From Branchiostoma floridae (lineage: Eukaryota; Chordata; Leptocardii; Amphioxiformes; Branchiostomatidae): 64,000 nt of DNA. The DNA is taken from the NCBI RefSeq assembly GCF_000003815.2, contig NC_049989.1, positions 9,278,880 to 9,342,879 on the forward strand, written 5' to 3'. A program made the translations under genes and the position numbers. Shown in pieces: positions 1 to 51,900 of this stretch. Below the pieces are notes generated by a model. It was not told the DNA's origin. It saw only the letters and a list, made by a program, of their open reading frames with translations, and made no database searches. Positions within the stretch are counted from its first letter, which is position 1. Each line of letters begins with the position of its first letter.

Positions 1-2436
1 TTTGTCTCCCAAGTTGTCAGTTGTTTTTTTTCAATCATGAGTGTTAGAAATGTCTTAACATATCACGGTTTGAAATGTTAAACAACCGGTTGAGTTGACG
101 TACTGTGATGGCACTTGTGTCGAACATAGCATAATACGCTTATTTTTGTTTCCGCCCGCCCGATCCGATAGGTAGTTAAAAATCTACAATGATTGAAAGA
201 ACAAAAAATAAAACTGGCTGGCAGCAAGGCATAATATAGTTGGCAAAAAAATTCTGTACCGCATGACCACATTTTACCAGTAACCACTGTATCTGTTTTC
301 ATCAGATCTAGTGATTTGTTTTAGTTTACCAAAAATGATGTGAGTTGATTGTTTTCATGTCTTCTTGTATTTCAAGAAGTAACGTAACGGTTATACATTT
401 AATTTATCATCTGAAAAACAGGTCAATGACCTGACTTTTACGTTTACTCTTGTAAGATAAATAATAATAACTCCGAATAGAAGGCCTTTCCATCCGCCAA
501 CTTTTACAAAAGGTCATATCTAATCATACCTTCAAGGAATTAAGTACCAACAGATAAAACTACGTTTCATAACAACCATCTAGGGTTTACAAGAGGTCAA
601 ACCTTTCACCGGATCGCTTTATGTTCTTACTTAGATAATCGCTTGCTTTGATGTCTTTCCCCTTGTTGCTTTTTACAGACTAAAACCCTTTTCAAGAGAA
701 GCGAGTCAACTATGAGAAAGATACAAATATGTGTCTTAAGTGGTGTCTTCTGTATGAGAGACTTTAATGTGTATAATTCTCTAGACTGAGAGCTTCTATC
801 CCACAGAACTAATTCTTAAAGCCCGCAAAAGAGGGATTAATAAGGGGGGGGGGGGTATGTTGGTTTCTCAGAAGTGGATCTAAGATGTTGCTACCGGTCG
901 ACTGGCGTCGGAGTTGTAAAGAATATTCCGAGCTCATAACTACTCGTTTACCGTATGTAAGGAGCGCTGAAATAATATCTAAGTTTAATTTTTGTTATGA
1001 TATCAGGAAAAATTCAATTACTATCGCAGTAAAAATAGAAAATCTTTACCACAAAACGGGTATCAGTTGGCGCTGGTGGTGTAATAGATACATGTAACGT
1101 TAAGCACATCCCATGCATTAGGAAAATGACAGGACACGATTACATGTTCTATCATACTCATAGGCAATCAACACAATTGAATTGAAACTTCATTCTCTGG
1201 AATCATGTAATAATGATATACCCTATACAGTTCGCCACTTACGACATCTCCAAGCAGATGTTGGTTAGTAGCCATCCTTCCATCTCGGTGGATGGCGGTA
1301 GCGTTCTAGTGTGCCTTGCCTAGCATGACTTGCCAATCCAAGGTGGTTAAAGATAGGACATATGAAAGTAGAAAAAGACGTATACGCATATTGAGACGGT
1401 ATACGTAAATGTTGGACCATCTATGGAAATAGTTACTCAAGCAATATTGATAGATTTTGGAATGGTCCATGAGTTCCAGCAATAACTACTTTACCGGTCT
1501 ATGATTGCCGAGATATTCGTACTTGTACAGAAAAAGATAAACAAGAAACCATGTACAATGGGAACTAATGTTCAATAAAAAAAAACACATAAAAGACCAA
1601 AGCAGTACGTGATCATAAGCCAACTTAGACAGCTCTATGCACCCCTGGACATAGTCAGGTTATACACTAGTACACTTTTATCCGTGGGGTAACCCATATC
1701 CGTTGTTTGATAAACAGGGCATATAGGGATATCAAGTCAACGGACTGTGGTTTCAAGATAAAATATTCGGAAAATATTGCAATTCAAAACCACTCTCCGA
1801 CGACAATGGACCCATGCCTGTTCTAGCTGTAAATTCATCACCACACAGTGCCCACAATCAGGTTTAAGACCTACGTAGCCATTTTACGTCTACATGTACG
1901 TCATGCCAGCGTTTATCATTCAGCAATTTATGTGTTCTAAAAATAGATTCATGCCATTTCTTTAGTATTCGTGACTATCTCAGGTATCTGCCCAATGGGC
2001 ATATTTACTTCAACTGTAAAACCCAACATAACGTTGTCATCAAACACGTGTGCAAAACCAGGTTCAAGACCTCTTTTACGTCACTGTACTTTTTACTACT
2101 TCGTAATCTATTTATTCAGCGCTGGGCGATCTGTCTACCACATCGGCACTAGCGCCAAAGGAAATGGCAAAATCTGAGTATAATAAAGAACGGCGTACTG
2201 AAAAATTATACCCTGCAGTGGGGGAGTATTCTGTGGTCATATTTCGATCTTCGGAGTAGCCGTATGATTGACTGCAGAGAGTATTTAGTTTGAAGAGGTA
2301 AAACCAAAGTCTGAGAAAGTGTTTTTTTTTATCGCTCTGAAACTTTTTATCCACATTTTGAGAGGTGGATGTCTTCAAGTCGAAGCTATAGAAATGCATC
2401 ATTTTATCGCACTATTTGAAGGTACTAATTTGATAC
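1..2436. other. Unassigned AT-rich intergenic sequence
   Basis: No reading frame here has both convincing splice signals and a recognisable protein. A run of G lies near 845-855. The motif ATCTCCAAGCAGA near 1245 matches one end of an inverted-repeat family seen elsewhere in the window, but no partner end is visible. I see nothing else I can support. Confidence 0.5.
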
Positions 2437-2590
2437 TCTCCAAGCAGAGGTTCGGCTCCGGTTGTTTTTTATGTGTTCGAATGCGTTTTTATCGGGCTTT
2501 CTATTTTTTGCTGTTCTGTTTATGTCTGTTTGACAGGAAAACATAAGGAAAACAGCACAAAATAGAAATACTGATAAGAACGCCTAAAAC
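2437..2590. mobile_element. Degenerate ATCTCCAAGCAGA-family element
   Basis: The left end reads TCTCCAAGCAGAGGTT and continues into GGCTCCG, as in the intact copy at 9707-9846. The right half contains a fragment resembling the GAAAACAGTACAAAATAG stretch of that copy. The far inverted end is missing or decayed, so this is a diverged or truncated relative. Confidence 0.45.
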
Positions 2591-2878
2591 ATGTCAAGAG
2601 TATTGATGTAAGGCTAGCATACAGCTGTCGCTATCTACCGCAGAAAATGGACCTTCAAAGACACCAAAACACCCGTCTGAAGTCCTGCCCGGACGGAGGC
2701 GCTCATCTCCATGTCTACATGTCTACGGCCACGTTTGAAGAAAATGCGTCTCTCTGTTACAAGAGACAGACGTCACAATGCAGCATCTGTCCATCCACAA
2801 AAATGGATTGAAATACAAATGTATGAAGAAACTGAGTATAGGTGTACGGCGTGCTTGCGCATCAACATGCAGGCTTAT

Positions 2879-3360
2879 GCCACAGCATGTAAATTTTATG
2901 GATGGCATCAGCGCGCTCATTAGTTTTCTCCTGATTTCAGAAAAAAAATTCTTCTTTGAAGATGGTCAACATGACGACAAATAACCAAAATAAGCCAAAA
3001 TGTTGTTTTGAACCCTAATGATTGTGAGTGTGACAAAAAATAGGTAGCTATGGCTGTAGTTGTAGAAGTGAGACTAGTTGTATAGTTGTGGCACCAATGT
3101 GTGTAGTTCCCAACTTTGTTAGTTGTACCGCTATCACTTTTATTGCACCAGTTGACAGTGACAGTGTACGTCCTGAACACAGGAATGACTTCTTGGCTGT
3201 GATACCATGTTTTGGCCCCTTTAATTCTTGTTACAACGTTTAAGGTGTCTATTTTGAAAATGTAGCCATCTTGTTTTTTATCCATCTTGTTTTTCGCCCT
3301 ATCTCACTATTTTTGCAGTCTGTAGAGGGCGCCATCCACAAAATTTACTTGCAGTGACCT
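2879..3360. mobile_element. TIR element, GCCACRGCAAGTAAATT family, copy 1
   Basis: The left end (GCCACAGCATGTAAATTTT from 2879) and the right end (AAATTTACTTGCAGTGACC to 3360) are imperfect inverted repeats about 30 bp long. The inner part just left of the right end contains GCCATCTTGTTTTT and ATTTTTGCAGTCTG. The same blocks occur in opposite orientation in the copy at 28155-28724. Open frames of 68 and 121 codons lie on or near it, but they resemble no known protein, so I treat it as non-autonomous. Confidence 0.6.
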
Positions 3361-3835
3361 TAGGTCTCACAAGTGTATCATCCGACCTAGGAACGTACAT
3401 ACACGGCGCGCAACCAATGATGAGGGATGGATTAGATACCCTTATTCTTTTCGGCATGCATTCTGTTACCATTGGGAGCAACTTCTGCCCCAAGTAGAAA
3501 CTTCAGACTGACCACTACTGACATGACTTCCAAGGTAGCTCTGGCTTCAATATGATTACCTGACAATTTTCACTCTCAGGAAGTCTTAGTCTGCTTCATT
3601 TTCAATGAAATTTATTTAAAAAAACACCTACTCTGTCCCATCGCTTGGTACACCATATCATCTCCCATATTTGTGTAGAAATAAAAACTTGATAATGATA
3701 TCTTCTATTCTAAAAATAGACCCATTTCATTTCAACCAGTGGTGAACCTATCATATCCAACGCAGGTAATAGAAAGAGCTGCCAGTATCACTATCATCGC
3801 ACAGTATGACAAATTGTGTCAATACTTCCTTTACG

Positions 3836-4130
3836 TCACTAGCTGGCGTTGGGTTTGCGTATTATACCCCTGTCACATTTGGCAAAAATCGATCGAACGA
3901 CGCTTTTGCTGCAATCGCCCGAGCCTCACTTATAATTATAACTTTATTGCACAACAACTGTACAAGGTACAAAGTATGGCTTATATGTGACAAAGACAGT
4001 TTCCAGGTGAAAAATACGCGCAACCCTCTGTCGATATCAAATAAGGCCGATCTTCCATCGATTGTCCCGAAGATCGTGGATAATGTGACAGGGGTATTGC
4101 GACATTCCAGAGATCCTACTAGTGAAAGTC
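3836..4130. mobile_element. Inverted-repeat element with ATACCCCTGTCACATT arms
   Basis: Near the left end, CACTAG is followed about 25 bases later by ATACCCCTGTCACATT. Near the right end the same pieces appear inverted: AATGTGACAGGGGTAT, then CTAGTG. The spacing between blocks is similar in both arms, which suggests a short non-autonomous element. No target duplication is clear. Overlapping open frames on both strands are explained by the inverted structure. Confidence 0.45.
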
Positions 4131-4666
4131 GGCTGGTGCTGTTCATAACCTAGTACCTGTCTGTGTTCTATGATATGAAATAATCGGACAATGTCATCTG
4201 TCTTTCAATTCTTGACTCTCAAGTGTCACTAGAAATACATTGTATGGTTTTCATACACAACTTTTGACTACAATTTCCTTTCTCTACTGGAATTTTGTTT
4301 GGAGACAAATTCAGCTCGACAGATTACTTTCTTTAAAACAAAAAAGAAACTTTCTTGAAGCTGAGCAATGGCATAGTACCTGAAAAAGCCTCTATTAAGA
4401 CAGAAAATTGCAAGTATGACAGCGCAATTTATTATGTACTTATGGACCTATAGAAATGCATAAATCCTACCATCGTAACATTTCGGTTGTTACTTTCTTC
4501 TTTCTCAGACGGATTGTAGTATAGGACACAGTCATGTTATCTATGTGAAATGCTATTTCTCAAGACGCATGAGCAACTGTTCCAAAATATGAGAAGACGT
4601 CATAGAAAAGAGGACACACACGGCTCCATTGATCCACCTACTCAGCAACCCACGTCTTGGTTACGA

Positions 4667-4926
4667 TTGGCCAGAGGGCAGAGAAAAGTGCCCGGATAAG
4701 CCGGGACCACATATATAACCCGGGAGGTTCTGATGGATAGTTAGAGAGAAGCTGGGCGGATAGAGAGGGGAAGGACACCGCGGGAGACAGGACGAGACCA
4801 CGGACCGACAGGGACCTACTGGTACCGAGAGAGCTGAACAAAAGCACCGGAGACGGACAACAAGCCACATCACAAGTAAGATATTTCTGCTTCAAGTAAG
4901 GTACTTCTACATCTGTTTCAGGTAAG
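4667..4926 (+). promoter_or_regulatory. Candidate TATA promoter and first noncoding exon
   Basis: An inverted CCAAT (ATTGG near 4667), a GC-rich stretch and TATATAA at 4712-4718 stand in the normal order and spacing for a core promoter on the plus strand. Transcription would start near 4743. The purine-rich tract downstream ends in three GTAAG motifs (4876, 4896, 4922) that could act as alternative splice donors. No downstream exon can be joined with confidence; the secreted-protein gene beginning at 9985 is the nearest plus-strand candidate. This is sequence pattern only. Confidence 0.3.
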
Positions 4927-5029
4927 AAACTTCTATTTCAGCTTCACTTTGCTTCGTCTTTGTAAATATGGTTCTAGTTAGGAACATGCTTCGCTTCGCA
5001 GGTATGAAAGGTGGGTACGCAAGGACATT

Positions 5030-5530
5030 TAAACGTACCTGTCCTTAGTCTGAACATCATATGTGAACATTCAGACAGACTTTTCCTTGGTTCTGAACAT
5101 CACAGGTACGCATAGTTAACAGAACTGTCCTTGGTGCTGAATATCTTATACAATGATATTTAGATAGACCTGTCCCTGGCGCTTAATATAATATGTGAAC
5201 ATTCAGACGGACCTGTCCTTGGTGCTGAACGCCATATACAAGGATGTTTAACAGACCTGTCCTTGGCGCTGAATATCACAGAGACGTACATTTAACAGAA
5301 CTGTCCTTGGTACTGAACATCTTATACAGTGATGTTTATATAGACCTGTCCTTGGCGCTGAATACCATATGTGAACATTCAGACAGACCTGTCCTTAGTG
5401 CTGAACATCACAGAGACGAGTATTTAACAGACTTGTCCTTGGTGCTGAACGCCATATACAAGGATGTTTAACAGACCTGTTCTTAGCACTGAACATCACG
5501 ACTCAACATTCAAACAGACCTGGAGCTGAA
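5030..5530 (+). repeat. Minisatellite with a 43-47 bp unit
   Basis: About eleven diverged tandem units share the core AGACCTGTCCTTGGTGCTGA, followed by a variable stretch such as ACATCACAGAGACG or CGCCATATACAAGGATG. Unit starts fall near 5034, 5084, 5126, 5169, 5208, 5253, 5300, 5343, 5386 and 5430. Neighbouring units alternate between a few variants, so a higher-order pattern of two or three units is likely. A 75-codon open frame through the repeats is a by-product of the near-45-bp period. Confidence 0.75.
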
Positions 5531-14923: not shown

Positions 14924-17900
14924 TCAGTTCTGTTCTCTCACGTTGTCCGGTTCTCTGAACGTCCTGGTGAGGATTCTCACAACCTCAAACAGCACCTACA
15001 GTTGAAACAAGAAACACAGGGTCAACTAAATCTGTCTAAATACTGTTAATTCATCAAGTTTTAGACACTCAAATTTAACAATAACTTGAATAAGGCCATG
15101 TTGATTTGATAACATGGATGCATCTATTAAAATAATGTTTTCTACCACATTGTAAATCGTACAAGGTAACTACAGAGTAACTGCAAATACATGCCATAAA
15201 TCTGCATACTAGGAATATCGAAAAACAGCTAATAATGTTGTAGAATGCCAAAGCCAAAAACTTTGGTATATCACTTAGATCTTACAATGAAATCAACACC
15301 TTTTTTTATTCGCATGTTCGCGTCAGTTTTTTGGTGCCCAGTGGATGTCATCCATATAATCAAATCAACATGGTCTAATGTGAAAACCAAGTCATTTCAT
15401 GGTATCTTTGAGTGCAGAGTTGACACAATAGAAGAATCAACGGAAGACAAGGCAAATGATTACAAAGCTAAAAGCAACACAAATATATCAAGAACGAATA
15501 ACTGTGACGAAAGTGAAACTATTTAAAATTGATGACAGATTGAAACAAAACCAGTATCGTGGTCAATCCCCTATAGCCCTTTCTACAGATATGATCTAGT
15601 ATTTGTTATCAAAACATGTACGAAAACTGTGGACAAAGAAGGGAAAAAAGCAGTCTATCATGACGTTGACCTCTTGCTCAAGTTTCTGTCTGAAATGTAT
15701 GAGAAACAATGAACTAATTTGGTATTGTCTGAGGAATATAAAGTTGACTTTTTTTACCAGCATTTGGTGTTTTCTTCCTCTTTTGAAACTTAAAGACTAC
15801 AGGAAGTCTGAATCTTTGGACAGGCCCGGAGAGACCAGACAAGATAATAACCAGTGATGACCTCAGTGCCCTCATGTGGGCAACCCATCTTCCTTCAAGG
15901 GCATTCATCAATAACTAGCTTCACAAATCAGCCAAGTTCATAAACAGTCCTCCTACACAATTCTTCCATCAATTATTGTAATTCATCGCTCCATTTTTCA
16001 CCATGTCAATGTGCTAAATTGGTTACTGTTACTTGGTTCTCCAGGGTCCGAAGATTTTGCCTAACAGAAACTTTGTACGGTTTATTGAGCCTGCATAAAG
16101 GGAAAGGTTTTACAAAACTTCAGTACATATATTTTTTCAAACATTTCACAAATTAGAAGGAAAGTTGTTTATCTTTCATGTGCAGATTTGTATTCCAATT
16201 TTCCTTAAAGATTCCTTGAATTTCCTTCTGATTCAATTAAGATTCTACTGACAAGAAGAAGCAACTATTAAGACTGTTGTTCTAATATATCGTCAAAAGA
16301 TTAAGATGGTCACTCAGATATATTGTAGCCAGTTTGTGGCCCTTACTTTCCCATTGATCATATATACTGTGACCATCTGTCAACTGTGGCTTGCTTTTTG
16401 TCACGTACAGATTTGAGTGCATACACAAAATCCACACCTCTATTGCAATGAGTGCGATGATCATCCATTCCAGACGAAGGCTGTGCCGCTCACTGAGGTG
16501 TGTCCTCATCAGCTCTGCCAACTCCTGACAGTGTCGCAGTTTTTCATTCACCACCTGGAGAATGGCACACACAAAAAAACTTCAATGACTTGGTTGCTAC
16601 AGTCACTGAGATACTTTGGACTGTAAAATTATACCATTCAGGATTCGAAATACTACCTGCATATGCAGGTTAGTGCAGGTAAAATTAGAGCTAGGCAGGT
16701 ATTTCTGACGTCTACCTGCACCTAACCTGCACTGGTCCATGTACCAGGTTTTATACATAAATATTCTATGATGTAGGTGCACGTGGATAGTTATTAGCTG
16801 CATTGGCTGTTACCACTTATCAAGTATGAAATAATGGTTTCTGAACAACTTCAGTATGATCCATACTTCCTAACTTCAGAGTGGTGCAGGTAAAATTTGT
16901 CTGGTGCAGGTAATTTTCAATGTTACCTGCACCAGTGCAGGTATGCAGAAAAAAGTATTTTGGGCCCTGCCATTAATTCTGGTCTTCAGTATACTTTCTT
17001 GCCTTTGATTGCAAATTTTTCTAACTGCAACTCTCTTTTAATTTTACAGAAACAAAACCATGAAAACTCACTTCCTTTTGGAATTCTTTATTCTGATTAC
17101 ACATATTCCTTTAAAGGTTGTTTCCTATTGGACGACCAAATTGTCTTCAGCTCTGTATCATTCAGAGTTAGAGTATAACAAAACAGTTTCTCCAGATCTC
17201 TTCAAGGTCAATGACGAAAGATAGTGGATACTATCTGAAACATCTGACCGTTTCCAAAATCACATCAAGTCGCTTGTCTATTAGTAACTGCTTTTAGGTA
17301 TATCTTTTTACCTGGAAGTCTAACCTTCATAGATGTGTCCTTAAAGGCCAATTTCTCCCTGCACCTACCGTGGTCCTTCCCGGGATGTTAAGGAACCTGC
17401 ATGTCTTGAGGTACAGGCTCTCCAGGTGGTCCCTGTCCCAGTAGAAGTCAGGTGTCATGAGGAGGTCTGAACCCAGGTTGATCCTGTACCTGAGATAATT
17501 CAAAGGCACATCAGACTAAGGTAAAGCAGGTCCAACTTACAGCTAGATAGAGTGTAACGCTTAGTAGCTGATAGCACAATGTGGTAACATTTTTAGCCAA
17601 GAACACTCCTAAAGCTAGGCCACCTTGATCTGCGAGTTTAACTTTTATCAATGACAATGATCTTTATTACATATTCCTGCCCAACATGGGCTAAATGCAT
17701 TGGGTTGGATAACTTATTATAAGTATACATGAAACAGGTTACATCTTATATCATCTAAAATCTACAGACTCTCTTCTCTCTTTTTGAAACTTGTGTAAAC
17801 AAATTTACAAATCTTTTTAAGTGCATTATATTTAGGGGACAGGGGCAGAATGACAGACACTGGAGAGAGCCTTGCACAAATGTCTACTTTAACAACTGAT

Positions 17901-20900
17901 ATCCTACATAAACTCACAACGAGCTGGACAAGCTAAGGATGTAACACTGTACACGTGAAATCATATCACTCAAGAGCAATATTCCCGTAATAGACCCAAC
18001 TGTATTGATATTTTGCATACATTGTGAAGTGAGAAAAATGAATCAGGCTGTGCCGACAAATCAATGACGTTCTGAGGCATGCTCTCCTCAAATTTCTAAC
18101 TCTCTAAAACGCTACTTTCAGCACTTCTAAATTAAATTTCAACTGAAAACTAGGGAAACGATGTATGAGGTTATGGCCGAGGCAGCAATAAGAAATAACT
18201 GAAAGTACTATCCCCCCCAACCAAAAGCTCTGCTTTAAGAATATCATTTTCATACAACTTGGGCACAGTTTTGGGTTGATGTTGACATCCTAACAAAAAT
18301 TACACTAGACACCCTCAGAAAAAGTTGAAAGCATCAACAAAATGCAAAGAAATGACCCTAGAACACCAGTCTGGCAGGAAAACATCCCAAGAGATCTAAG
18401 AATCGATTTCGTTCCACCTACTTGAGAGCAAAGAGCTCGCCAATTTTCTGCATGACCTTCGGGCGTGACATCTTGAGTCGTTTCCCCTCCCGCAGCAACT
18501 ACAGGGGGGAGGAACATGGTTCTGCACTTAGGCCACTCCAATGTGGTAGATAGGTTCTTACAACTTTGACAACTTTGAACAAAACGCAATTCTAAAATCT
18601 GATAAGTAAACTCTTGGTTAAAAGGATGACCAGTATTGTTCAGGTATAACACTAGTTCACCTTTATCTGCAGGGTAATCAATTGCTTTTAAAAGATGGGT
18701 ATTTAAGGAGTTCAAGTCAACCAACAGTGATTTAAAATTGAAATATTTTGAGGGCTTGTAAAAATTATCAAAAGCCATGTGTAAATTGTAAACCATTAAA
18801 TTTTTGCTGACAGTTGCTGTGCTTCTATTTTCACAGTTTTTGCTGCACTGCTTCTTTTGTGCACAATCTTAAACACTTCAGAAACTTAGGGCTTGAAATA
18901 CCACCTGCATATGCAGGTTAGTGCAGGTGAAATTGGAGCTGTGCAGGTATTTTTGATGTCTATACCTGCACCTAACCTGCACTGGTCCATGTACTGGGTT
19001 TTATACATTAATGTCCTATGATGTAGGTGTATGTGGACTGTTATTAGCTGCATTGAATGTTACAACCTATAAAATATTTAAAAAATAGCCGTGGTTCCTG
19101 AACAATTTTTAGTATGATCCATACTTCCTAAATTGAGAAGGTGCAGGTAAAATTTGTCTGGTGCAGGTAATTTTCAGTGTTACCTGTACCAGTGCAGGTA
19201 TGCAGAAAAAAGGATTCCGAGCCCTGTGTGTGTTTTGTAATTCTACATTCTACACAATTGCATCAACTGCAAACACTACAAAAACTTTCTTTTGTTTTCC
19301 CTCCAAATGAGCAATAAAATCACAATGGAATTAAAAGTATCACTGTGACAGTATCAAACACAAATACATGTACCACCTGTTAAGTAAAATACCTACCTCA
19401 GGAATGTACATTATAGAGTCAACATAGTCGTCCAGCCAGGCTTCCCAGATAGCAAGTTTCACTGGTACAGAATGGGAGAACAGGATTTTATTACAATTCT
19501 ACAAAGCTACCATAATGTATTCATCAATGATTGTAAATTCGTCTGGGCTAACTCAACAAAAATCTCACCATTTTTTGTGTAATAATTATGTATTACAGGT
19601 TTTGAACTGCTGTTGTTACCATTTTTGTTCAAGAACGCTAAATTTTCTCAACTTCTGTTCATTTTGCATCGAAACCTGTAAAGTCTTGGGTGACTATGGA
19701 ATAACCGAAATACAACAAAGTATATTCCACATCACCCTGGGTCCCAGCCTGACCATGGGTCGGATCGGCTTTGGAGCAATCCTACCTGTGGTCAGGCCGG
19801 TACCAAGGGACAATATTGTGTTGTAAATCTCTATGTACATACCAGACAAAGCCATGGCATTGGAGAATGTGTACTTCTCTAGTATCATATCCAACTCTGC
19901 TGCACTGCTGGACAGCTGAATGTCTCCATTAGACAGCAGCGTGCTGTTCCTGCAGACAGCACAAAATACGGAGTTACTTTAGCTTCAATAAACAAGTCTA
20001 GTGTACTTTTCAACTGCAATACATATCATGCAAGAGGAGGAAATGGTCACTGTATAGACAGGTGGCAACTATTGACAAGATTTTTAATTATTGGGTCAAT
20101 GTGAAACAAACAAAAGTTGGCCACAAGAGCTAGATGGGCCTTATGTAGAGGTGATAACGTAACTACATGTTTAATTGTATGTCCAAGTGTCATAGAAAAC
20201 AGTTGTTCAACAAAAGTAATGAATATTCTTTCCCACTACTTTAGACACATACTGATGCTATAGTTACAGCATGTTCTAACACATCAGAAATAGCAGAACC
20301 TACTCTGTGTAGGAATAGTTCATCTGCTCGTTCTCCCACTCCACCAGAGCAATGTTGTAGGGGTTCCGCTCGTACTGCTCCAACATCTGACGCACTTCTC
20401 GCATCTGGGGTACACACGGAATATACATTCAACATATTTGTTTCAAAATGGTAAGTCTAATGGTTAAAATTGAACAATGCAGTATCACAGTGGGTATACA
20501 AAGAAGAAAAAGGACCAGGGCTGTAGCCAGCATCCGTCCTCTCGTCCTTTGGCAGAATTTTGTAACTGGGGACGGAAAAAAATTTTGCCCATTCCGTCCT
20601 CTGTGAGCAAAATTTAACCCTCAAAATGCAGGAAATAGCGTTTCAAAGGGTCTAGATTTCAAAATTTTTCCTGGGAGCATGCCCCTGGGCCTTCCTAGTA
20701 ACACTGCGTCAAAGCCATTAAAAATCGAGGAGACGGAAAATGATTTCTGACTGGCTACAACCCTGAAAAGGACCCAGATAAAGTTGTGTGGCACTTACAG
20801 TTTGATCTTCCACGTTCCAGAATACGACCATGCCATCTCTGAAACATGAAAGTTGAATTGAAAGTTAAGGAACTGAATGTTCTGTTTGACAAAGGAAGAA

Positions 20901-23008
20901 TGGAAAGTTAAAAAGAATCAAGAATGTTAATATTACCTCCACAAATCATTTGTCTGTACATGTGTGTGTGTGTGTGTGTGCATATGTGTGTGTATATGTG
21001 TGTATGTTTGTGTGTGTATGTGTGTATACATGTGAGTGTGTGTGTGCGCGTGTGTGTACACATGTGTGTGTGCGCGTGTGTGTACACGTGTGTGTGCGTG
21101 TGTGTGTGTGTGTGTGTGTGCGTGCGTGCGTGTGTGTGTACACATGTGTGTGTGCGTGTATCTGCATCATTGTGTACAAATGTCTGCATGTGTCCTTTGA
21201 GAAACATTACCCCAAACATAGCAGCTGAACCAGACAACATACTGCCACCTGAAGAAGAAGATGTCCCCCTGTGTGGATTGTCTGTCCACCTGTCCTCCAT
21301 CTGACCTTGGTTCAGGGTCATGGCATACGTGAACAACGTCAAATGCATCTGTAAGAAGCAAGTTAACAGCTTTTATAAAAGAATACAGTTCAACCCAAAG
21401 GCAACATTGAGACAATTGTGATATCACAATTACAGTTCTTAAAAATGTTTTGAACAAAACATGCCTGGAGGTCTAAAATGGTCACTAGGGGGCCAAATAC
21501 CGCATATTTCTGAACCTAAACTAGCAACTAGCCTGGAGTCCAGCCTTGTTGTTAGCTTTGGTCCGCTCACCAATGGTGAGGTAGTGACTGTCTGGAGTGG
21601 TCGCCAAAGGCTGGACTCCAGGCTAAACTGAAATGTTCAATGTAACTCAGAAATCATGACCATAGCATGTTCAGAAGATGAGATACTAAAACCAGACATT
21701 TTGCTGTAGTACGATGAAAAGTTGCTGGGAGGCCTATCTTTGCAATGATTAAACTTGAATAGTGTCTCTAGTAACATTTACCATACTCCTCAGCTGTAAT
21801 GTACGCTATACACACCAGCATCTGATAGGGAAGTCAACAATACAACATTACTGTCTCTAGTAACATTTACCATACTCCTCAGCTGTAATGTACGCTATAC
21901 ACACCAGCATTCTGATAGGGAAGTCAACAATACAACATTACTGTCTCTAGTAACATTTACCATACTCCTCGGCTGTAGTATACGCTATACACACCAGCAT
22001 CTGATAGGGAAGTCAACAATACAACATTACTGTCTCTAGTAACATTTACCATACTCCTCAGCTGTAATGTACGCTATACACACCAGCATCTGATAGGAAA
22101 GTCAACAATACAACATTACGATAAAGTTAGACATGGCCAATTATTGATAATATTTTTCATAATTAAATCTCATATTGGTTTTTTTAGCCTGGGTCCCATC
22201 CTCCATATAGTAACCAAGTTACAGTGGATACTAAGGAGGATGGTAAGTTAAAGAAATTTTCAAAAAGTTCCCAGTATTTCAATGTCACTACAATGTTAAA
22301 ATGAAGAGTTCGTAGTCTCTGTGAGATTGCAAGTGAAACGTTAGCGGGAACAATGGAAAATGGATCAAATGGTCACAGGTATGTTGAGTTCTGAGAAATC
22401 ATCACAAAAACTTAAAATTTTGAATATTTCAAGAATTACAATACCTTCTCCTTTGGCGCCTTTGCAGCTGCCAGTGCAGGTTGTTTGGTCCTAGTTCTGA
22501 CTGCAGGTCTTATTTTGGTTTCCACATCGCTTCCTCTTGTTGTAAGTATCCTACAAGCTTGACTTAAATCTTTCTCCTTCATGTTCAAAACATTTCTGTT
22601 GAAAATCGAGCTGTTGTTTCTTGCATAACAGCTAAGAGTGAACAAGGAATGCTTTTTGACAAAAGGGAATGACGAAAGGACATCTTTCTTAAGAGAGTCT
22701 TCGTGAAATATATTTTTCTGAGTTTTGTTGAAATACCACTGCATTAGTGAACTGCTTGTCCTTGGAAGATGGGAGTCACCTGGATGGATGTTGGCCCTCT
22801 GCCGACTTCTACCCAAACTGCAGCTAGTCAGCTGGCTGACATTTCGATTGGAAATTCCAAGCAAATGACAGGAATTCCCCGTGGAAGTTCTTTTGGTAAA
22901 AGTTCCTGGAATCACAACACTGGAACTTGGCGGTTGTTGGAAAACCCTTACTAGTAACCGTGAGATCAAATTCCCTTCACTAAGAAACCTGGAAACGTTG
23001 GAAGTCAT
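14924..23008 (-). CDS. RMND1, DUF155 mitochondrial inner-membrane protein
   Basis: Twelve coding exons join in phase on the minus strand: 23008-22445, one 40-bp copy from the array at 21763-22119 (e.g. 21821-21782), 21472-21395, 21348-21249, 20838-20799, 20404-20304, 19949-19843, 19461-19397, 18498-18422, 17489-17369, 16554-16438 and 14995-14924. The product is about 493 residues. The first exon is a long, basic, poorly conserved presequence-type region. The conserved DUF155 part includes [73 protein letters not shown] and [16 protein letters not shown] single transmembrane helix ([18 protein letters not shown]) lies near the C-terminus. In vertebrates RMND1 is an inner-membrane protein that supports mitochondrial translation, and its loss causes combined OXPHOS deficiency. 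The 21472-21395 exon has a weak GTTGAA donor and a 46-nt following intron. I accept it because phase fits and its end reads [15 protein letters not shown], like the vertebrate segment before the GEIFFF motif. Confidence 0.93.
16640..16968. mobile_element. CCTGCATATGCAGG element, copy 1, in an RMND1 intron
   Basis: The left end is AGGATTCGAAATACTACCTG and the right end is GTATTTTGGGCCCT. The body has many CCTGCA/TGCAGG words, including the palindrome CCTGCATATGCAGG. A second copy in the same orientation lies at 18888-19225. There is no coding capacity. Confidence 0.65.
17137..17300 (+). repeat. Dispersed repeat fragment, related to 29380-29515
   Basis: The two stretches share TTGTCTTCAGCTCT, then ATGAAAGATAGTGGATAC (here ACGAAAGATAGTGGATAC), CTGAAAC, TCTGACCGTTTC and TAACTGCTTTT in the same order and spacing. 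This looks like the 3' tail of a retroelement, but no reverse transcriptase remains. Confidence 0.5.
18888..19225. mobile_element. CCTGCATATGCAGG element, copy 2, in an RMND1 intron
   Basis: The termini AGGGCTTGAAATACC and GGATTCCGAGCCCT are imperfect inverted repeats. The 338-bp body aligns along its whole length with 16640-16968, with scattered substitutions. No clear target duplication. Confidence 0.7.
20516..20765. mobile_element. hAT-type non-autonomous element with 8-bp target duplication
   Basis: The 15-bp ends CAGGGCTGTAGCCAG and CTGGCTACAACCCTG bound a 250-bp element, flanked on both sides by AAAAGGAC, a perfect 8-bp duplication typical of hAT insertion. The body contains CCGTCCTC repeats and no coding frame. 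It sits in the RMND1 intron between exons 20838-20799 and 20404-20304. Confidence 0.88.
20959..21166. repeat. Interrupted (TG)n microsatellite
   Basis: About 200 bp of TG dinucleotides interrupted by TACACA and CGCGTG words, in the RMND1 intron between exons 21348-21249 and 20838-20799. Long open frames of Cys-Val or His-Thr repeats on both strands are artefacts of the repeat. Confidence 0.95.
21529..21625. mobile_element. Short foldback element, TAGCCTGGAGTCCAGCC
   Basis: TAGCCTGGAGTCCAGCCTT and its complement AAGGCTGGACTCCAGGCTA form the ends of a 97-bp hairpin-like element in an RMND1 intron. The start TAGCCTG is shared with similar short elements at 22195, 30041 and 37718. Confidence 0.7.
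21763..22119 (-). repeat. Four-fold tandem array carrying RMND1 coding exon 2
   Basis: Four copies of an 89-bp unit each contain a complete 40-bp exon with its own CAG acceptor and GTAAATG donor on the minus strand. The exon copies are A 21782-21821, B 21871-21911, C 21961-22000 and D 22050-22089. A and D are identical and encode [13 protein letters not shown] plus one base, which carries the exon-1 phase 0 to phase 1. C encodes T in place of I in AYITAEEY and has two silent changes. B has one extra base at the acceptor boundary, giving 41 bp and a shifted frame. The introns between copies are about 49 nt (GTAAATG...CTATCAG). Joining two copies puts TGA in frame inside the second, so only one copy can be used per functional mRNA. 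Confidence 0.85.
22195..22243. mobile_element. Short foldback element remnant, TAGCCTGGGTCCCATCCTCC
   Basis: The left end reads TAGCCTGGGTCCCATCCTCC. Only the inner part of the complementary right end, GGAGGATGG, is present. Same family as 30041-30120 and 37718-37778. Confidence 0.5.
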
Positions 23009-33935: not shown

Positions 33936-36900
33936 CTATGCTGAGGATTCTTTTAAGTTTTCCAGGTATTCTGTCATATCGTCATCTGGTTTCAACCCCA
34001 TTTGTCGATAGTCCCAGTCAAACTCGTCCTCCGTAGGAGGGCAGGGATTACTCGTTATTCTGATTGGGTCTTTAGGTGCCGCAAACGTGGTAAAGTTCAC
34101 GGCGGGCATAGTGTCCTCTTCAGGTGTTTCAGTTTCCTTGTTTTCGTTCTCATCAGCAGTCATGATTGGTGGTGGTGGAGGAAGAACGTCTTCGTTCTCC
34201 TCTTCGTTGACGTTCTCCACCGATCCAGTTTGGGACGGCTCTTCCGACCCCTGGGTGCTGACGGTGTTGCTGGCAGGTGCCGGGCCCTCACCAGCCTTGC
34301 CCAACCACACCCAGTCATGGGCATGGGTCAGACTCTCATCACTTCCATTGGGTATTCTCTTCTGCTTGTATCTCGCAGCAAAGAGGATACAGTTCACCAG
34401 GAACACCATGATGGCCAGGCAGAACACTCCAAGGAGAGCGTACATACCAATCTCGAGATCCGACAGCTTCCGCGGCTGTTCCACATAGTCTTGGTATGAC
34501 TCTTCGCTCTCCACTGAGACCCGTTCCACTTCCTTCTTGCTGCTGCCTGGCAGATTACCAAAGTCTAAGTTGTCCAGAGGTATGATGATGTTCTCTTCCT
34601 TTCGTCTGTCCTCCACGGTGTCAACAATCATATCGTTTTGAACTTCCTCCTCTGTTGAGGTTGGGAGCATCTCCTCTGTCTCTTCATAGACATACTCTTC
34701 ATCATTAGTGTCCTCCTTCTCTTCACCAAACTCGACACGAAGGATGTTGGAATCTACTGTCAACTCGGGTTTTGTCTTCTTGATGTCATTGGGACGATTT
34801 TCTGCGTTGAGTTCGTCCTCTTCAGCTGGGGGGTCGCTGCTTTCTAGTTTGGGAATGCTGCTGGTGAGGTTCACGTTGATCTCTGTGCGAGTGAAAGCTA
34901 ACTCGCTGCCTCGTTTGCGCCGCATGCACCCTTCAGGGATCCTTAGTTCCACCTCCAGGAGGTCACCTTTCCCGTGGCCTGTGGCGATGACACGTGGGAT
35001 GGTGTGGGTTTTGCTGGGGCTGAGGGCCACCACACGTGGGTTCAGGGATGACACTTTGATGCTGTACTCATTGTCTTCGATTTCTCGCAGCCAGAATGCT
35101 GATCCATCACTGAAAGACACTGAGACATCCAGAACTCCCCGCTGTAAGAGAGATAACAAAACATTTTTACTCTCAAAGGTCATGACATTCTGAAAAAAGA
35201 TCCAGGATATCTATCTCACACAAACTACATGACAAACTCTACATAATCCATCATCTTCATACCTCAAATACTGATACGCATGCCATTTCTGAAACTCTCC
35301 AGAGGGCGTTTACTCTTATCGGGCTGTGCCAAAAGGAGTGGCCTGTATCCTACTTCAACATTGATTGGCCATTTTTCAAACCAAGATACCCATCTGCACC
35401 GACCCCATCATGAAACTACCTCAATAAGATCATAAAAAGAAGTCATGAAGTCCTTTTAGTTTGTTCTGTTGGGCAGAGGTTAGATTTGCCAAATGCTAAA
35501 TGTGTTTTGTGAGATATCCCAAGGGATGTTAGTGGGATTCTCCAGTTGTTTCAGGAACGTGACCAGCATCAAAGTCACAGTCCTTCGGTTTTGTCTTCGA
35601 TGCAATCAGCGTTCTTTACAGCCACAGGAGTTAGAAATATTGCCATGCTGAAATTAGCTACAATCCTCCTACTGCCCTCTATGCAACACGATGATGCAAT
35701 TTCACCGATGAGGTCGGGGATGTAATTATCAGATCGACTTCTTGGAGTTCAACACGTGGCTTAGGGGCATGTCTTGCAGCAAGGACTCTGGGCAGTCTTT
35801 ATCTTTGATTGGGTTGTAACGGTTGGCAGTCTGCCCAACACTGTGTGATACACCCAAAAGATATATCTAGTCATTCTTTGGTGGTGAAATGACTTGGGTC
35901 TATTGGGGGGAAAATCCATTTTAACCCTCTTGGCACTTTATTAGCTTGTGGTAGGCCAGACGAATTCCCTTCCCTAATCAAATTCTGCGATGAAACATGC
36001 CACAATCTAAGACAGCGTAGAGGGAAATCAAGATAAAGTGCTGAACTCTCTATCCTTTGGGACATCCAATATCTGAAGTGAATCGTCTGACCGCCGTGAA
36101 CCTAAAACAACGAATCATATCTGCCGTGACTTCACCTCTTGTTGTCATTTGATTTTCTGTGTGATTCACATGATACCTAACTGCAGCATTTTTGCCAGAT
36201 TTTCTGAATACGTCTCTTATTTCTCAGAAAACTTGTCCAGCGATATGGATTGACTGAAGAAAAATGTGTCATGTTTGCCATGATTTTCGTTCTGTAAAAT
36301 TATGTTTTTCGTCAGCAATAAAAAGAATGGTTAAAAAAAAGGCTAAGAACAACAGAACAAACTAGTGTCTTACCTGATATTGTCCTGTCATTGTCTGTTG
36401 TGCCGTTGTTGTGGCTGAGAAGATCTTGCCCCCGGAGGATGGTTCAGGTGTCAGTGACATGGTAATCCCAGCAACGACAATGGCCTTGATGCCCTTGATT
36501 GTGACCTTGTCATCAGCGACCATCAGTTCCTGAGCTCCCATCAGTCTGCCATTCAGTGGAGAGATGACCTAACACAAAAGGGTCAAGAGATTTTTTTAAA
36601 CAATGCTAAAAAAAAGCTTGTATCCTCTAAATCTTGGGAGAAGATTCTGACAAAAGTCAGACTGACCATTACTGACTATAACAGGCCAAAGTGGGCCATA
36701 GCCTTTGATTGTAATTTGTTTACCAGCGAACATAATTGTACCATCAGGATACCATGTTTCTACCAAACTTCATAAAACGACACCCTACCCCCACTTACTC
36801 CCTTGCAATGCCCAGAATAGCCAGAAATTAACATTTCTGTGCATCTTAGAAAAAAGAAATGCATCAGATCTTTAAAAATTAAGTTGCAAGTATTCTCCCT

Positions 36901-45900: not shown

Positions 45901-48900
45901 TGCAATAAGGTAGAGAAGTCCTTAACAAACTCTTAACCTGAAAATCTCAAAAAGAGTAGAGCATATATAAAAATAATTTTACAGTTTCTTATTAACATAA
46001 ATAATATATCAATGATCTGCTTTAAAACAGTATTTTTTGTGTAATGTTACTGAATGATGTTTGCTATAACAAGTCATAAATAAAAACCAAATTTCATGTC
46101 ACTTTGAAGACTCTACAAGCACAATTGCAAATTCAGAATTCTCTGATTCAAATCAATATTCTGGTGACAACACCTCTCACAATGGAATATCTCGAAGCTG
46201 TTATGACCAAATCTTTCTACCCTATGATGCAGATTCTGTACCCTTCCCATGCATTGCCTATTCTCTGTGGAGTAATAAACCAGTGCATCAGGATACCTAT
46301 TAGGCTTTAGGTGGCTCTTACCAGGAAAAGCGAGACTCAATCTTTTCACCCGCATTCCATATCAACTGCAAAAATCTAGCTTTAGAACAGAACATTTCTC
46401 TGCAATCCTCACCGTCATGATAAATATCTATGGTTTAAATATCAATTCCAAAGGCATGCTGATATTAAAGCAAGAAAGCTATTCTGGTACTGGTAGCTTC
46501 TCTTTTTTTATTAAAAAAATGGTTATGAGACCAGTAACATCCAAGAGGAAAATCCTCCCCCCCAGGCCACAGGAAATAACAGTCTATAATAATTGTACAT
46601 TCATACACAAATGTCAGTCACAAAGGACCAGGCAGCAATACATCATTTACATTATGCCATCAAGATAGAAGTACATGCCAATGATTAAATAAAGTCAATG
46701 AAGCAAAGCTGTTTTAACCTTCCCACATAGCTTGCTTTTAAACATTTGAACATGTGTGATAACACCATTTTGCAGTCTTCTTTATTTTCTGACTTTTCAA
46801 TCAGCATGGGGTGTTATGTTTCTGTCTGTTTCAGACAAAACACAGCCACTGGTTTGAGCTTCCCCTCTTTAATCCTTCCAACATACACCTAAGCTTCCAG
46901 GCCAGATGTGTGGTAGGGATGGCCCTTTCTTGCTAAAAGTCTAGTGCCTGAAAAAAATCAACTATTGATGAACTGCAATATCCCAGGCAATAAATTATAG
47001 CGGGCAAGGGGTTACGTACCTCTGCATTGCGATTTGTTGCTGCCATTGTCTTTCAGCTTCTGCTCGCTGTGGGTCCATGCTTGCGGTAACGGTCATGCTT
47101 CCATGTTTCTGGTTGCTCGAAGTAGTGATCTGCCATCTTGTGGGGTCCAAGGGCCTTGCTCCAAGTACCTGAATGCCATTTTTGGGTTTAGCCCTGAAAC
47201 AACAACAAAATATACAAAATCTTTCTCACAAAAAGGTGAAGAAATATTTACAAATGTTCCTAAAATTTCCACCTTTGAAGCATTCATATGAAAAATTTCT
47301 AATCCCATTAAAATCATGTTTAACCAAGGATTCTCTATTGCTCTTAATTAATTTTTTGATTCTACCTGCTATGGTGTATTTATGGTACCACACTTGCATT
47401 ATAAATAACACATCCAAGCTTTGCAATAGCATGTTTATAAGATAACCACATATCATATAGCTTTTAATAAATTATGTTCTTTAAAAAAATTTCTATTTTT
47501 ACCCGTTACAGGGTTAGCTTTTAACAGAATTTTTCTTTGACACAAGTGAATAAAAGCAACAAAATTTGTACACATGAAAAGGACTGGAGATCTTGTGAGC
47601 TCAAACAGCAAGTCTTTGATCTCTGACCTTGTTTCCATATCAAACAAGGTATCGGTAACCTACACCCTTTGATGTATTTTTCTTTCTCAAAGCAGAGACA
47701 AATGTATTAATTTACACTGGCACACTGCTGGAGCTTTACAAAGGCTTGTTTGCACAAGATTGTTCACATGGATAGAAAGACTCTTTTTAGTATTCTGTAC
47801 TTGCAACTTGTGGTCCCCATGTGTATCTGCTTTTCTTTTTGTCAATGGTCTTGATCAATGCTACATAAGATTATTCATGGCCTAAATCTAAATGTAAGCT
47901 TGTACAGTGGAACAGTGGCATTTCATGTGACAGTAAAAACAAACTCTCGCTTGTGAAAGCACATGTATACAATGACAGGATAAGCATTTTTCAAAGAGTA
48001 AAATCCTGTATTCACATGCAACAACACTACAACCATTACTATTGGTTGATAAATAGCATTTTTTTTCTTATTTTGTAATTTTTCAAAGAGGATTTACAAT
48101 GCAGCATTATTTGCTGTATTATCCCTGTGCAATGCACATGTGACTTCAAATATCCAAATGACATTCTTGATACGGCCTCAAGTATACCCTTTTTTAATGA
48201 GGATCTTAAAGTACCTGCCAGGATGATCAGATATGAACTTACATTACTGCAATCAGTTATAAAATTGCTTTGTTCTGACTACATCATGCCTGTGGCATAC
48301 ACCGCGTAAAACAAGATTTATCTACATTTGCAGCTGGAAATTTTACAAAAATTCACAAAGGAAATCATGTGTTGGAAACATCAGTGTTGCCGGTTCACAA
48401 CCCCAACTTCTCTGATTGCCCTCCCAGCTTCAATTATTGATCTATGCGAACGCCAGACAGCCATTTTGCCCTTGAGACGACATTGTCAGCCATCATCACT
48501 TGGTGGGGCGACACCTCAATGTCAAATAGATTTGACCCTCCTTCCTTGCCTGTATTTCAGTAGTATCCTCTTGCCCTTTTATCAGCTTTACACACACTTT
48601 AGGATGCAGAATCAGGGTATTAAATGTCAGAACCAGAGGTGATTACATTTAATACAATTGCAGGCTACTAGCAAGGACCTTTTTGAACCTTCTGAAGATA
48701 GGAAATGGGTGATAAGGAATTGCTCAGTCAGTGGCCTAAATTTCTTATTTCAATGACATGTTATAAATTGTATGGTGAGATCTGTTTATTCATCACTTAT
48801 ATTATAAATTTTGGCAAGGAGATTATGCAGAAAGCAAACTCCATGACATTTTAAAACCATGCCTTTGTAAATCCAACGGAAATGGGTGATAAGGAATTGC

Positions 48901-51900
48901 TCAGTCAGTGGCCTAAATTTCTTATTTCAATGACATGTTATAAATTGTATGGTGAGATCTGTTTATTCATCACTTATATTATAAATTTTGGCAAGGAGAT
49001 TATGCAGAAAGCAAACTCCATGACATTTTAAAACCATGCCTTTGTAAATCCAACGTTAGATTACACAGTGTCTGCAATCACATCTCAATTTATCTTCCAG
49101 ATATCATTATCTGTGTTTATCTTATACTCTCAAGGGAATGTTTCTGACAGTCTTATAACATAATGGATTGGGACCAGAATTTGTCCTTTAGAAATGCTGA
49201 TTAATGAGCCCCTAATGCTGCAGAGTTTATAACTCCTTTCACTTTTCATAAACATTCACATATAAAGCAATATGAGGGTAATATATAAGCAACTTCTATT
49301 ATTTTCAAGTTGAAAAAGGCCTATTAACCATTGTGAATCACAATATTACGTATACAGCAGTTACCAAAACACCTGTTTTTTTGGCATGATGGGTTTAATT
49401 TTTGTAAATTGCAAGTGCCCGAGTTGCATAAAAATGATGCTGCTTTTTAGAATATGGGAAACAGCCTTTTCAGAGTTAGAAACCCCCTAGATTTTTCCTG
49501 GTTTGGAAACTTTGGTTTCTCCTTTCCACAGTAAAAGCCTTCTACAGCAGTGCTGGACTTGCAGTTCGAGTCCAATACACCTATTGAACTGCATACAGCC
49601 TATTACAGGGAGGTAGAATTCAGGGGCCAAGCAATGGCAGCCTCCTTTTAATAATACAGGAGATCAATATCTACATCACAGATCAAAAGGCTGCTACAGC
49701 AGACATCCATTCTGATACTGAACAAATCTGATGACTAAGTTTGATCCCAGGATGTAACATACCAGCGTTTCAATAAATGTAGTAATGTATATACTGCTCT
49801 GTGATCGGACTTGTTACATGTAATTATTAATTTGTAACCTATCCCAATGGAAAAGTTATTTTAGTCCCCACACATGCCATAATGAAACATTGGGAAGATA
49901 GGAATTCAGGCATACTAAGTGGTATCAAATTTTCTCAGGTACTGGAGATGAAAAATTTCGTGAACAACAAAGATGGCTACACAATCACTGGCAAAGCATC
50001 ATGGGTATTGAATGGAAATGCAGGCCATCTCTGTTCCCAGGGAGAGTGTAGCCTCGCATAAATTCCGCCTCATAAATTTGAACCGACTTGCTGGCAAAAC
50101 CTTTCTGCCAGGAAGGGCTCCAGGACAAAGGCCGATGCTTGAGAACCCATTAGAATATCAAAACGATATTCCGTGGCCTAAAAAACACACCACTTGGAAA
50201 TCGCAACCATTTATGCACAATTCTGGCTGCAGGTCATCCCTTTGAAAATGCAGAAATGTTGCTCTTTGGGGCCATCAATGCACTTTCCCGGAGGTAAAAG
50301 GATGCATTGTAAGACCTTTTAGACCTCATTTATGTATTCTAGTCAGGGCAACTAGGCTATTGGTATGCAAGTGCGTGGTGCAAAGCATGCGAAATGGGCA
50401 CAGGCCATGTTGGCAAGGGCAGGTTCTGCCCGGAGATGCAGCCGACCATGCTAAATGATTACAGTTGGGCAGAATGAACGTAATAAATTATTGAAGGTGA
50501 AAACAGACCACATGGAGTCCGACATGACTTGCCTTCATACACTCGCTTTACACTAGGTTTTTCTGAGACGTCTTGGCCAATACCGTCTCAGCCAAGACCT
50601 TTAACGAGAGCTTTACACACGCTGTGACAAGCTGTCTTGGACTCCCTGCAGAGCAGGCTTGCAGACATTATTCTGTGTCTCTGCATTTAACCACACACTT
50701 TCCTCTGTAATAAGTAGGCAGTTTTTCCACAAATGCAGGGGAAATATAGATGGTTGGATTGTAGTGGACTCCAACAACTATCAGAAAAAAACAGTCCCTG
50801 TTTAAAGAGGTAAAAAAAGGTGTCGAAAATAAGAAAAAAAAAATTACAATGAAAAACAACCTCCTAGTAAACACAGATCCAAAATGCTGTAGAGATTGCA
50901 CTTGGTAGGCTCAATGATACATACCCTTTGACCTACAAATACCGCTCAAAGTTGGCCCTAAGCAGGCTCTGAGACGAATTTTCTAAGACCGTTCTCTTTA
51001 CACAGTAAAAAATGGGTCTTGGCACTCCTGCTGTGCGTCTTCACACCCCTGCTGAGCGTCTTGAGACCACATCTGATGTGGTCTCAAGACGCACAGCAGG
51101 AAATCTGGTCTTGAGACCCCAAATCGCTCTTTACACTGTGGCTGAGACGTCTTGGCTGAGACGGTCTTGAGACGGTCTTGGCCAAGACGTCTCAGAAAAA
51201 CCTAGTGTAAAGCGTGTGAAAATAACCATTGACAAGTTTTCATGCCACATCTGGATTACTTGATGATTTTACCATGCCAGAAAAATGCTGAATATCATGT
51301 CAATTATGCATATGTTTGGCAATTAATATGCCGTGTTTTCTGCCAGTTCTATAACCTTCATATCTGGGATCTCATCACAGATTGGGAGCAAAAACTATAT
51401 TTTCTTACCAGAACACACCACAAGGACTAAAATATTCTATGGATGACAGCTTTAGGCATGTGGCTCCCAGACAGCATTGTTGAACAGGGCAGATGGTTTA
51501 TTGTTTGACAGAGAACCAGTTGAAAGGATATTGTCCTGCTTTTGGCCATCTGCACCCTGAAAATACTGCAGCTTCTGACCCTGGCTTGCAACATTTTTTT
51601 ACTGCATTCATCCACATTTTTCCATGACTATTTCATGCCACTGTACTGGGAATTTCTTTCACTGCTTTTAAATACTACTAAATAATTGATTAATCCACCA
51701 TGGTTACTGTCAGATACCTATGCACTCAGCAACAATTTCCCAGACACTGACTGTACTTCCATTCTGATTTCTTTGACAACTCGTCTGTGGTGACTTTTCG
51801 TGCATGCTTGCATGCAAGACACTTTCCAGGTACTGGATTCGGTATTCATATTTAATGGCAAATGGTCTACATTAACAATATTCTCACCTGTCAAACAAAA

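Follow-up and report, generated by a model that had tools for sequence, protein, structure and literature searches.

Duplicated Exons and Boundary Repeats Comparable to the RMND1 Array

Amphioxus genes are known to contain minisatellites that lie over exon-intron boundaries, termed "mirages", described at Adh3, BflGb6, and BflGb9, with units of 10-72 bp at Adh3 and of 150-160 bp at the globin genes. The same source refers to further amphioxus loci of comparable structure and mentions one mirage that had been aberrantly assembled (PMC3087553). The array analyzed here is found in an RMND1-like gene of Branchiostoma floridae, within a window (the whole stretch of DNA that was studied) of 64,000 nucleotides. 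It resembles the mirages in consisting of minisatellite-like units that carry splice signals and extend across the border between exon and intron in a coding gene. However, its unit comprises an entire exon together with its acceptor and donor, whereas the mirages, as presented in the available text of PMC3087553, duplicate a single boundary. Most likely, the array is an ordinary unstable repeat, rather than a designed one-of-four switch.

Three other types of exon duplication are relevant for comparison. The duplicated exons 4a and 4b of OGDH are separated, like the copies in RMND1, by a short spacer that falls below the threshold of about 50 nt reported in vertebrates for the distance between the 5' splice site and the branch point, and alpha-tropomyosin is cited in the accessible portion of that paper as a two-exon pair of the same short-distance type (PMC7969005). 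Unlike the OGDH pair as outlined there, the RMND1 array has four copies, the non-neighbors of which are free to join, and these copies are nearly identical, with one of them broken. Clusters of the Dscam type, governed by competing RNA structures, share with the RMND1 array the presence of more than two tandem exon copies, but differ from it, as far as the available excerpts describe them, in that no unusual pairing was detected in RMND1 by a simple test and that its copies hardly diversify the protein (PMC6071210, PMC8042237). In COE/EBF, one small exon of a conserved gene is also tandemly duplicated; according to the accessible text, transcripts of vertebrates invariably retain the duplicated exon, whereas two copies in RMND1 break the reading frame (PMC2394523).

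The Host Gene

All exons of the gene are located on the minus strand. Exon 1 (22445-23008, 564 nt from the ATG) is open, ends in phase 0, and is followed by the donor GTATTG. The next constant exon, exon 3 (21395-21472, 78 nt), runs from phase 1 to phase 1, confirming the statement of the first-pass annotation that whatever is spliced between the two must shift the phase from 0 to 1. The Pfam DUF155 match begins within exon 4 (21249-21348, 100 nt), and exon 5 (20799-20838) is also 40-nt long, but present in a single copy. They are followed by exons 6 (20304-20404, 101 nt), 7 (19843-19949, 107 nt), and 8 (19397-19461, 65 nt). A later DUF155 exon is placed at 17369-17489, the exon or exons linking it to exon 8 not having been found, and another exon at 16438-16554 was attributed to this gene solely from inspection of the sequence.

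When exon 1, one 40-nt copy of the repeated exon, and the six exons 3-8 are joined, the frame remains open, and the resulting protein matches PF02582 (DUF155, RMND1/Sif2-Sif3/Mrx10) over residues 257-365 (E 4.2e-20, 73 bits against a curated cut-off of 27). The repeated exon encodes residues 189-201 and thus precedes the Pfam match, contrary to the earlier view that it forms the start of the DUF155 region. Since a piece of the protein lacking both exon 1 and the repeated exon scores 75.3 bits compared to 73 for the whole, the Pfam score is blind to these 13 residues. They include AYITAEEY, which we take to be a conserved RMND1 motif.

The search of the genome for DUF155 returned one exon-level match, 17369-17500 in this window, although a paralogue with smaller exons could escape such a search. 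No relative of the RMND1 piece was found at E≤1 among solved structures, nor was any NCBIfam model matched at that level. Within the region of the gene, an open stretch of 187 residues on the minus strand (18308-18868) matches TSGA13 weakly, at 20.2 bits against a curated cut-off of 27.

Anatomy of the Array and the Integrity of Its Assembly

Tandem Repeats Finder delineates an array at 21763-22119 with a period of 89 bp, 4.0 copies, and 96% matches (score 677), in agreement with the fourfold 89-bp repeat reported in the first-pass annotation. In the order of transcription on the minus strand, the units occupy 22119-22031, 22030-21942, 21941-21852, and 21851-21763, three of them having 89 bp and one 90 bp. 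Each unit consists of 30 nt of intron end (terminating in CTATCAG), the exon, and 19 nt of intron start (beginning with GTAAAT). An acceptor and a donor are therefore present in all four units, as had been claimed, but the exon is not the same 40-bp one throughout: it has 40 nt in copies 1, 2, and 4, and 41 nt in copy 3. The introns flanking the array are 355 nt (exon 1 to copy 1) and 309 nt (copy 4 to exon 3) long, and the three spacers between the exon copies measure 49 nt each, as had been estimated.

Copies 1 (22050-22089) and 4 (21782-21821) encode the same 13 residues in the correct frame, the unit of the former carrying T for C in the pyrimidine stretch upstream of the exon. Copy 2 (21961-22000) also encodes 13 residues in the correct frame, with three substitutions, one of which replaces Ile by Thr. 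Copy 3 (21871-21911) has an extra A directly after the acceptor AG, a run-length difference of one letter that breaks the frame if this copy is used alone; the extra A could be real or could result from a sequencing or assembly error. Of the four equal exons proposed earlier, three are thus usable. With the extra base of copy 3 set aside, 4 of the 89 columns vary, three of them exonic and confined to copy 2, the fourth intronic and confined to copy 1. The excess of exonic variable columns has P=0.24, with four sites being few, and on these four columns no bias toward protecting the exon copies over the spacers is seen. It is not plausible that four units so alike arose by chance.

The array might be an artefact, with fewer genomic copies expanded by mis-assembly or with two haplotypes placed one after the other. 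Amphioxus assemblies are indeed confounded by tandem repeats and by variation between haplotypes, as indicated in the available part of PMC2632668, and the aberrantly assembled mirage (PMC3087553, accessible text) provides a precedent. Moreover, the extra base in copy 3 resembles an indel error, and not a single substitution separates copies 3 and 4. On the other hand, copies 1 and 2 have private substitutions, the units are in register except for one base, and stacking of haplotypes would account more readily for two copies than for four. In addition, the 513-Mb assembly contains a single match to the array and its near flanks, with no further copies or allelic contig found elsewhere in it by a search that skips very common words. 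We consider such an artefact unlikely.

The intron downstream of the array contains a fully complementary inverted repeat (21529-21625) with 19-nt arms placed 59 nt apart, resembling a small foldback element. An arm related to it (80%) is located upstream of the array, at 22183-22202.

Reading Frame and Joining of the Copies

To follow the frame, exon 1 was linked to exons 3-8 through every possible combination of the copies. Of the 15 non-empty sets, 3 keep it open, each made up of one copy only (1, 2, or 4). A stop is reached inside the array, or shortly downstream of it, when copy 3 serves by itself and in each of the 11 sets with several copies. The rule that only single copies can work, including the failure of three copies, is therefore upheld. 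The more specific prediction that two copies create a TGA within the second one holds for sets 1+4 and 2+4, but not for the others: in 1+2 the stop is created where copy 2 meets exon 3, in 1+3 and 2+3 it is another codon, located in copy 3, and in 3+4 it also lies in copy 3. The two-copy sets fail largely because the length of the exon is not a multiple of three. The product with no copy is shifted in frame and reaches a stop in exon 6.

Could the spacers themselves prevent the joining of copies, as the first-pass annotation had suggested? Branch-point adenines were predicted by a loose rule and by the stricter YTNAY, with the loose-rule matches at +4 and +48, which lie inside the splice sites, excluded. 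Candidate adenines are present in the 49-nt spacer at +10, +23, and +37 from the donor by the loose rule, and at +37 by YTNAY. All of them are below about 50 nt, a vertebrate threshold that is assumed here for the lancelet, and neighboring copies can plausibly be expected to join inefficiently, provided that the vertebrate rule applies to lancelets. Non-neighboring copies behave differently, since their joining would remove 138 nt (copies 1 and 3), 228 nt (copies 1 and 4), or 139 nt (copies 2 and 4). On the predicted branch points and the vertebrate threshold, the distance is thus short enough for every neighboring pair, but not for 1-3, 1-4, or 2-4. Because the introns of these three pairs are 138-228-nt long, steric blocking cannot by itself leave single copies, and as the sole enforcer it is ruled out; the part of the suggestion that concerns neighbors is plausible.

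Docking of RNA elements was considered as another means of selection, but found no support in a simple test of duplex formation. No unusual pairing was found between the unit of copy 2 and the two introns that flank the array, with 26 of 200 shuffles being as strong or stronger for one of them and 93 of 200 for the other, in a test limited to simple duplex energies for one unit in one species.

These results bear on the possibility that the four copies constitute a functional array of mutually exclusive exons, enforced jointly by the short spacers and the logic of the frame. Spacers of 49 nt with all predicted branch points under the threshold of about 50 nt (PMC7969005, as given in the available text) are what such an array would be expected to have, and so is the single-copy frame rule. 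Yet the joins between non-neighbors are not blocked, no unusual pairing of the tested unit with the flanking introns was found, and a choice among the copies would give almost no protein diversity, because the residues encoded by copies 1 and 4 are identical, a single residue is changed in copy 2, and copy 3 is out of frame. A functional array of this kind appears quite improbable. Most doubtful of all is a splicing switch that lowers the output of RMND1, with multi-copy and skipped products destroyed and the copy number tuning expression, since the stops reached by the 11 multi-copy sets, by copy 3 alone, and, in exon 6, by the zero-copy product agree with it, but this property follows largely from the length of the exon alone.

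Mirage-like Arrays in the Assembly and the Background Rate of Tandem Arrays

With 89-bp units repeated 4.0 times at 96% matches, the RMND1 array is minisatellite-like, as are the mirages, and it spans both exon-intron boundaries in a gene matching PF02582. A search of the assembly for globins yielded 9 matches from 14 candidates. Only one of these nine loci (L030) has an array with a period of 30-300, consisting of 4.2 copies of 158 bp at positions 954-1601 of that locus, with three upstream copies of the acceptor and exon start followed by the exon itself. It agrees with the three-unit haplotype published for BflGb6, with which it may be identical. The published BflGb9 array was not seen among the nine globin loci, each of about 3 kb.

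The background frequency of arrays was estimated from 190 kb of sequence, one 10-kb stretch (2.00-2.01 Mb) having been taken from each of the 19 large contigs, and hence not at random. They contain 24 arrays with a period of 30-300 and at least 80% match, 4 of which are strict (period 60-300, at least 2.9 copies, at least 90%), corresponding to about 21 per Mb. This rate is rough, as four of the 24 arrays, including two of the four strict ones, are 60-bp arrays from one stretch (L017). In that stretch, the four 60-bp arrays lie apart from one another within 5 kb, at 594-5400.

Assuming 100,000-200,000 exons, 5% of them 40-nt long, about 3-6 strict arrays (at least 2.9 copies) containing a whole 40-nt exon with the near intron would be expected in the genome by chance placement, an estimate that rests on two arrays, the 60-bp units being too short to count. 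For exons of 60 or 80 nt, the corresponding number under the assumed exon counts is about 10-25, and a looser calculation for 40-nt exons, using 18 of 19 arrays and the same assumption, gives 19-38. On such a rough background rate, the presence of one whole-exon array in the genome is not surprising.

Other tandem repeats are also present in the window. Two 177-bp tandem copies with 100% matches at 48701-49055 reflect either a duplication of very recent date or a stutter in the assembly, and a degenerate 44-bp array at 5037-5522 has higher-order periods of 132 and 176.

Origin and Implications of the Whole-Exon Repeat

We regard it as probable that the array is a minisatellite of the mirage type, the unit of which took in a whole exon and which is tolerated rather than selected. 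The presence of one frame-broken and one missense copy, the density of tandem arrays in the genome, and the globin array at L030 speak for this reading. Against it, the described mirages repeat one boundary, and only one of nine globin loci has such an array. The array is probably neutral.

The ancestral single exon, together with about 30 nt of the upstream and 19 nt of the downstream intron, would have been duplicated in tandem, and growth to four units may have proceeded through unequal exchange or slippage. Because a unit carries the acceptor, the exon, and the donor, every copy would be a potential exon. One copy would most likely be spliced between exon 1 and the 78-nt exon, with the 49-nt spacers probably disfavoring joins between neighbors. 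Other multi-copy products, or those with no copy, would be out of frame, contain premature stops, and presumably be lost by nonsense-mediated decay. The number of copies probably varies between animals.

What is new in the RMND1 array is a minisatellite unit that encloses a complete exon and the splice sites on either side of it, repeats over boundaries being already known. The earlier claim that an array of this kind had not been described is accordingly weakened by the published amphioxus minisatellites (PMC3087553, available text). No report of a whole-exon minisatellite in RMND1 was found among the titles and abstract openings that were searched, and a whole-exon case may be in print among the further amphioxus loci cited.

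More tentatively, the copy number of an exon may be a natural, heritable, and perhaps somatically changing variable of splicing, with RMND1 alleles carrying from one to several interchangeable cassettes. If this is true, the series of such alleles would provide a natural measure of how the spliceosome counts identical exons. Four near-identical cassettes that share their splice signals, and only one of which can be kept, would test both the choice of splicing among equals and the clean-up by decay. The concept of amphioxus mirages would be widened from a repeat of a boundary to a repeat of a whole exon, a raw state for the evolution of alternative exons.

Elsewhere in the window, two open stretches on the minus strand match parts of TMEM132: its C-terminal and sixth Ig-like domains at 33939-35210, and its N-terminal and second Ig-like domains at 51923-52891.
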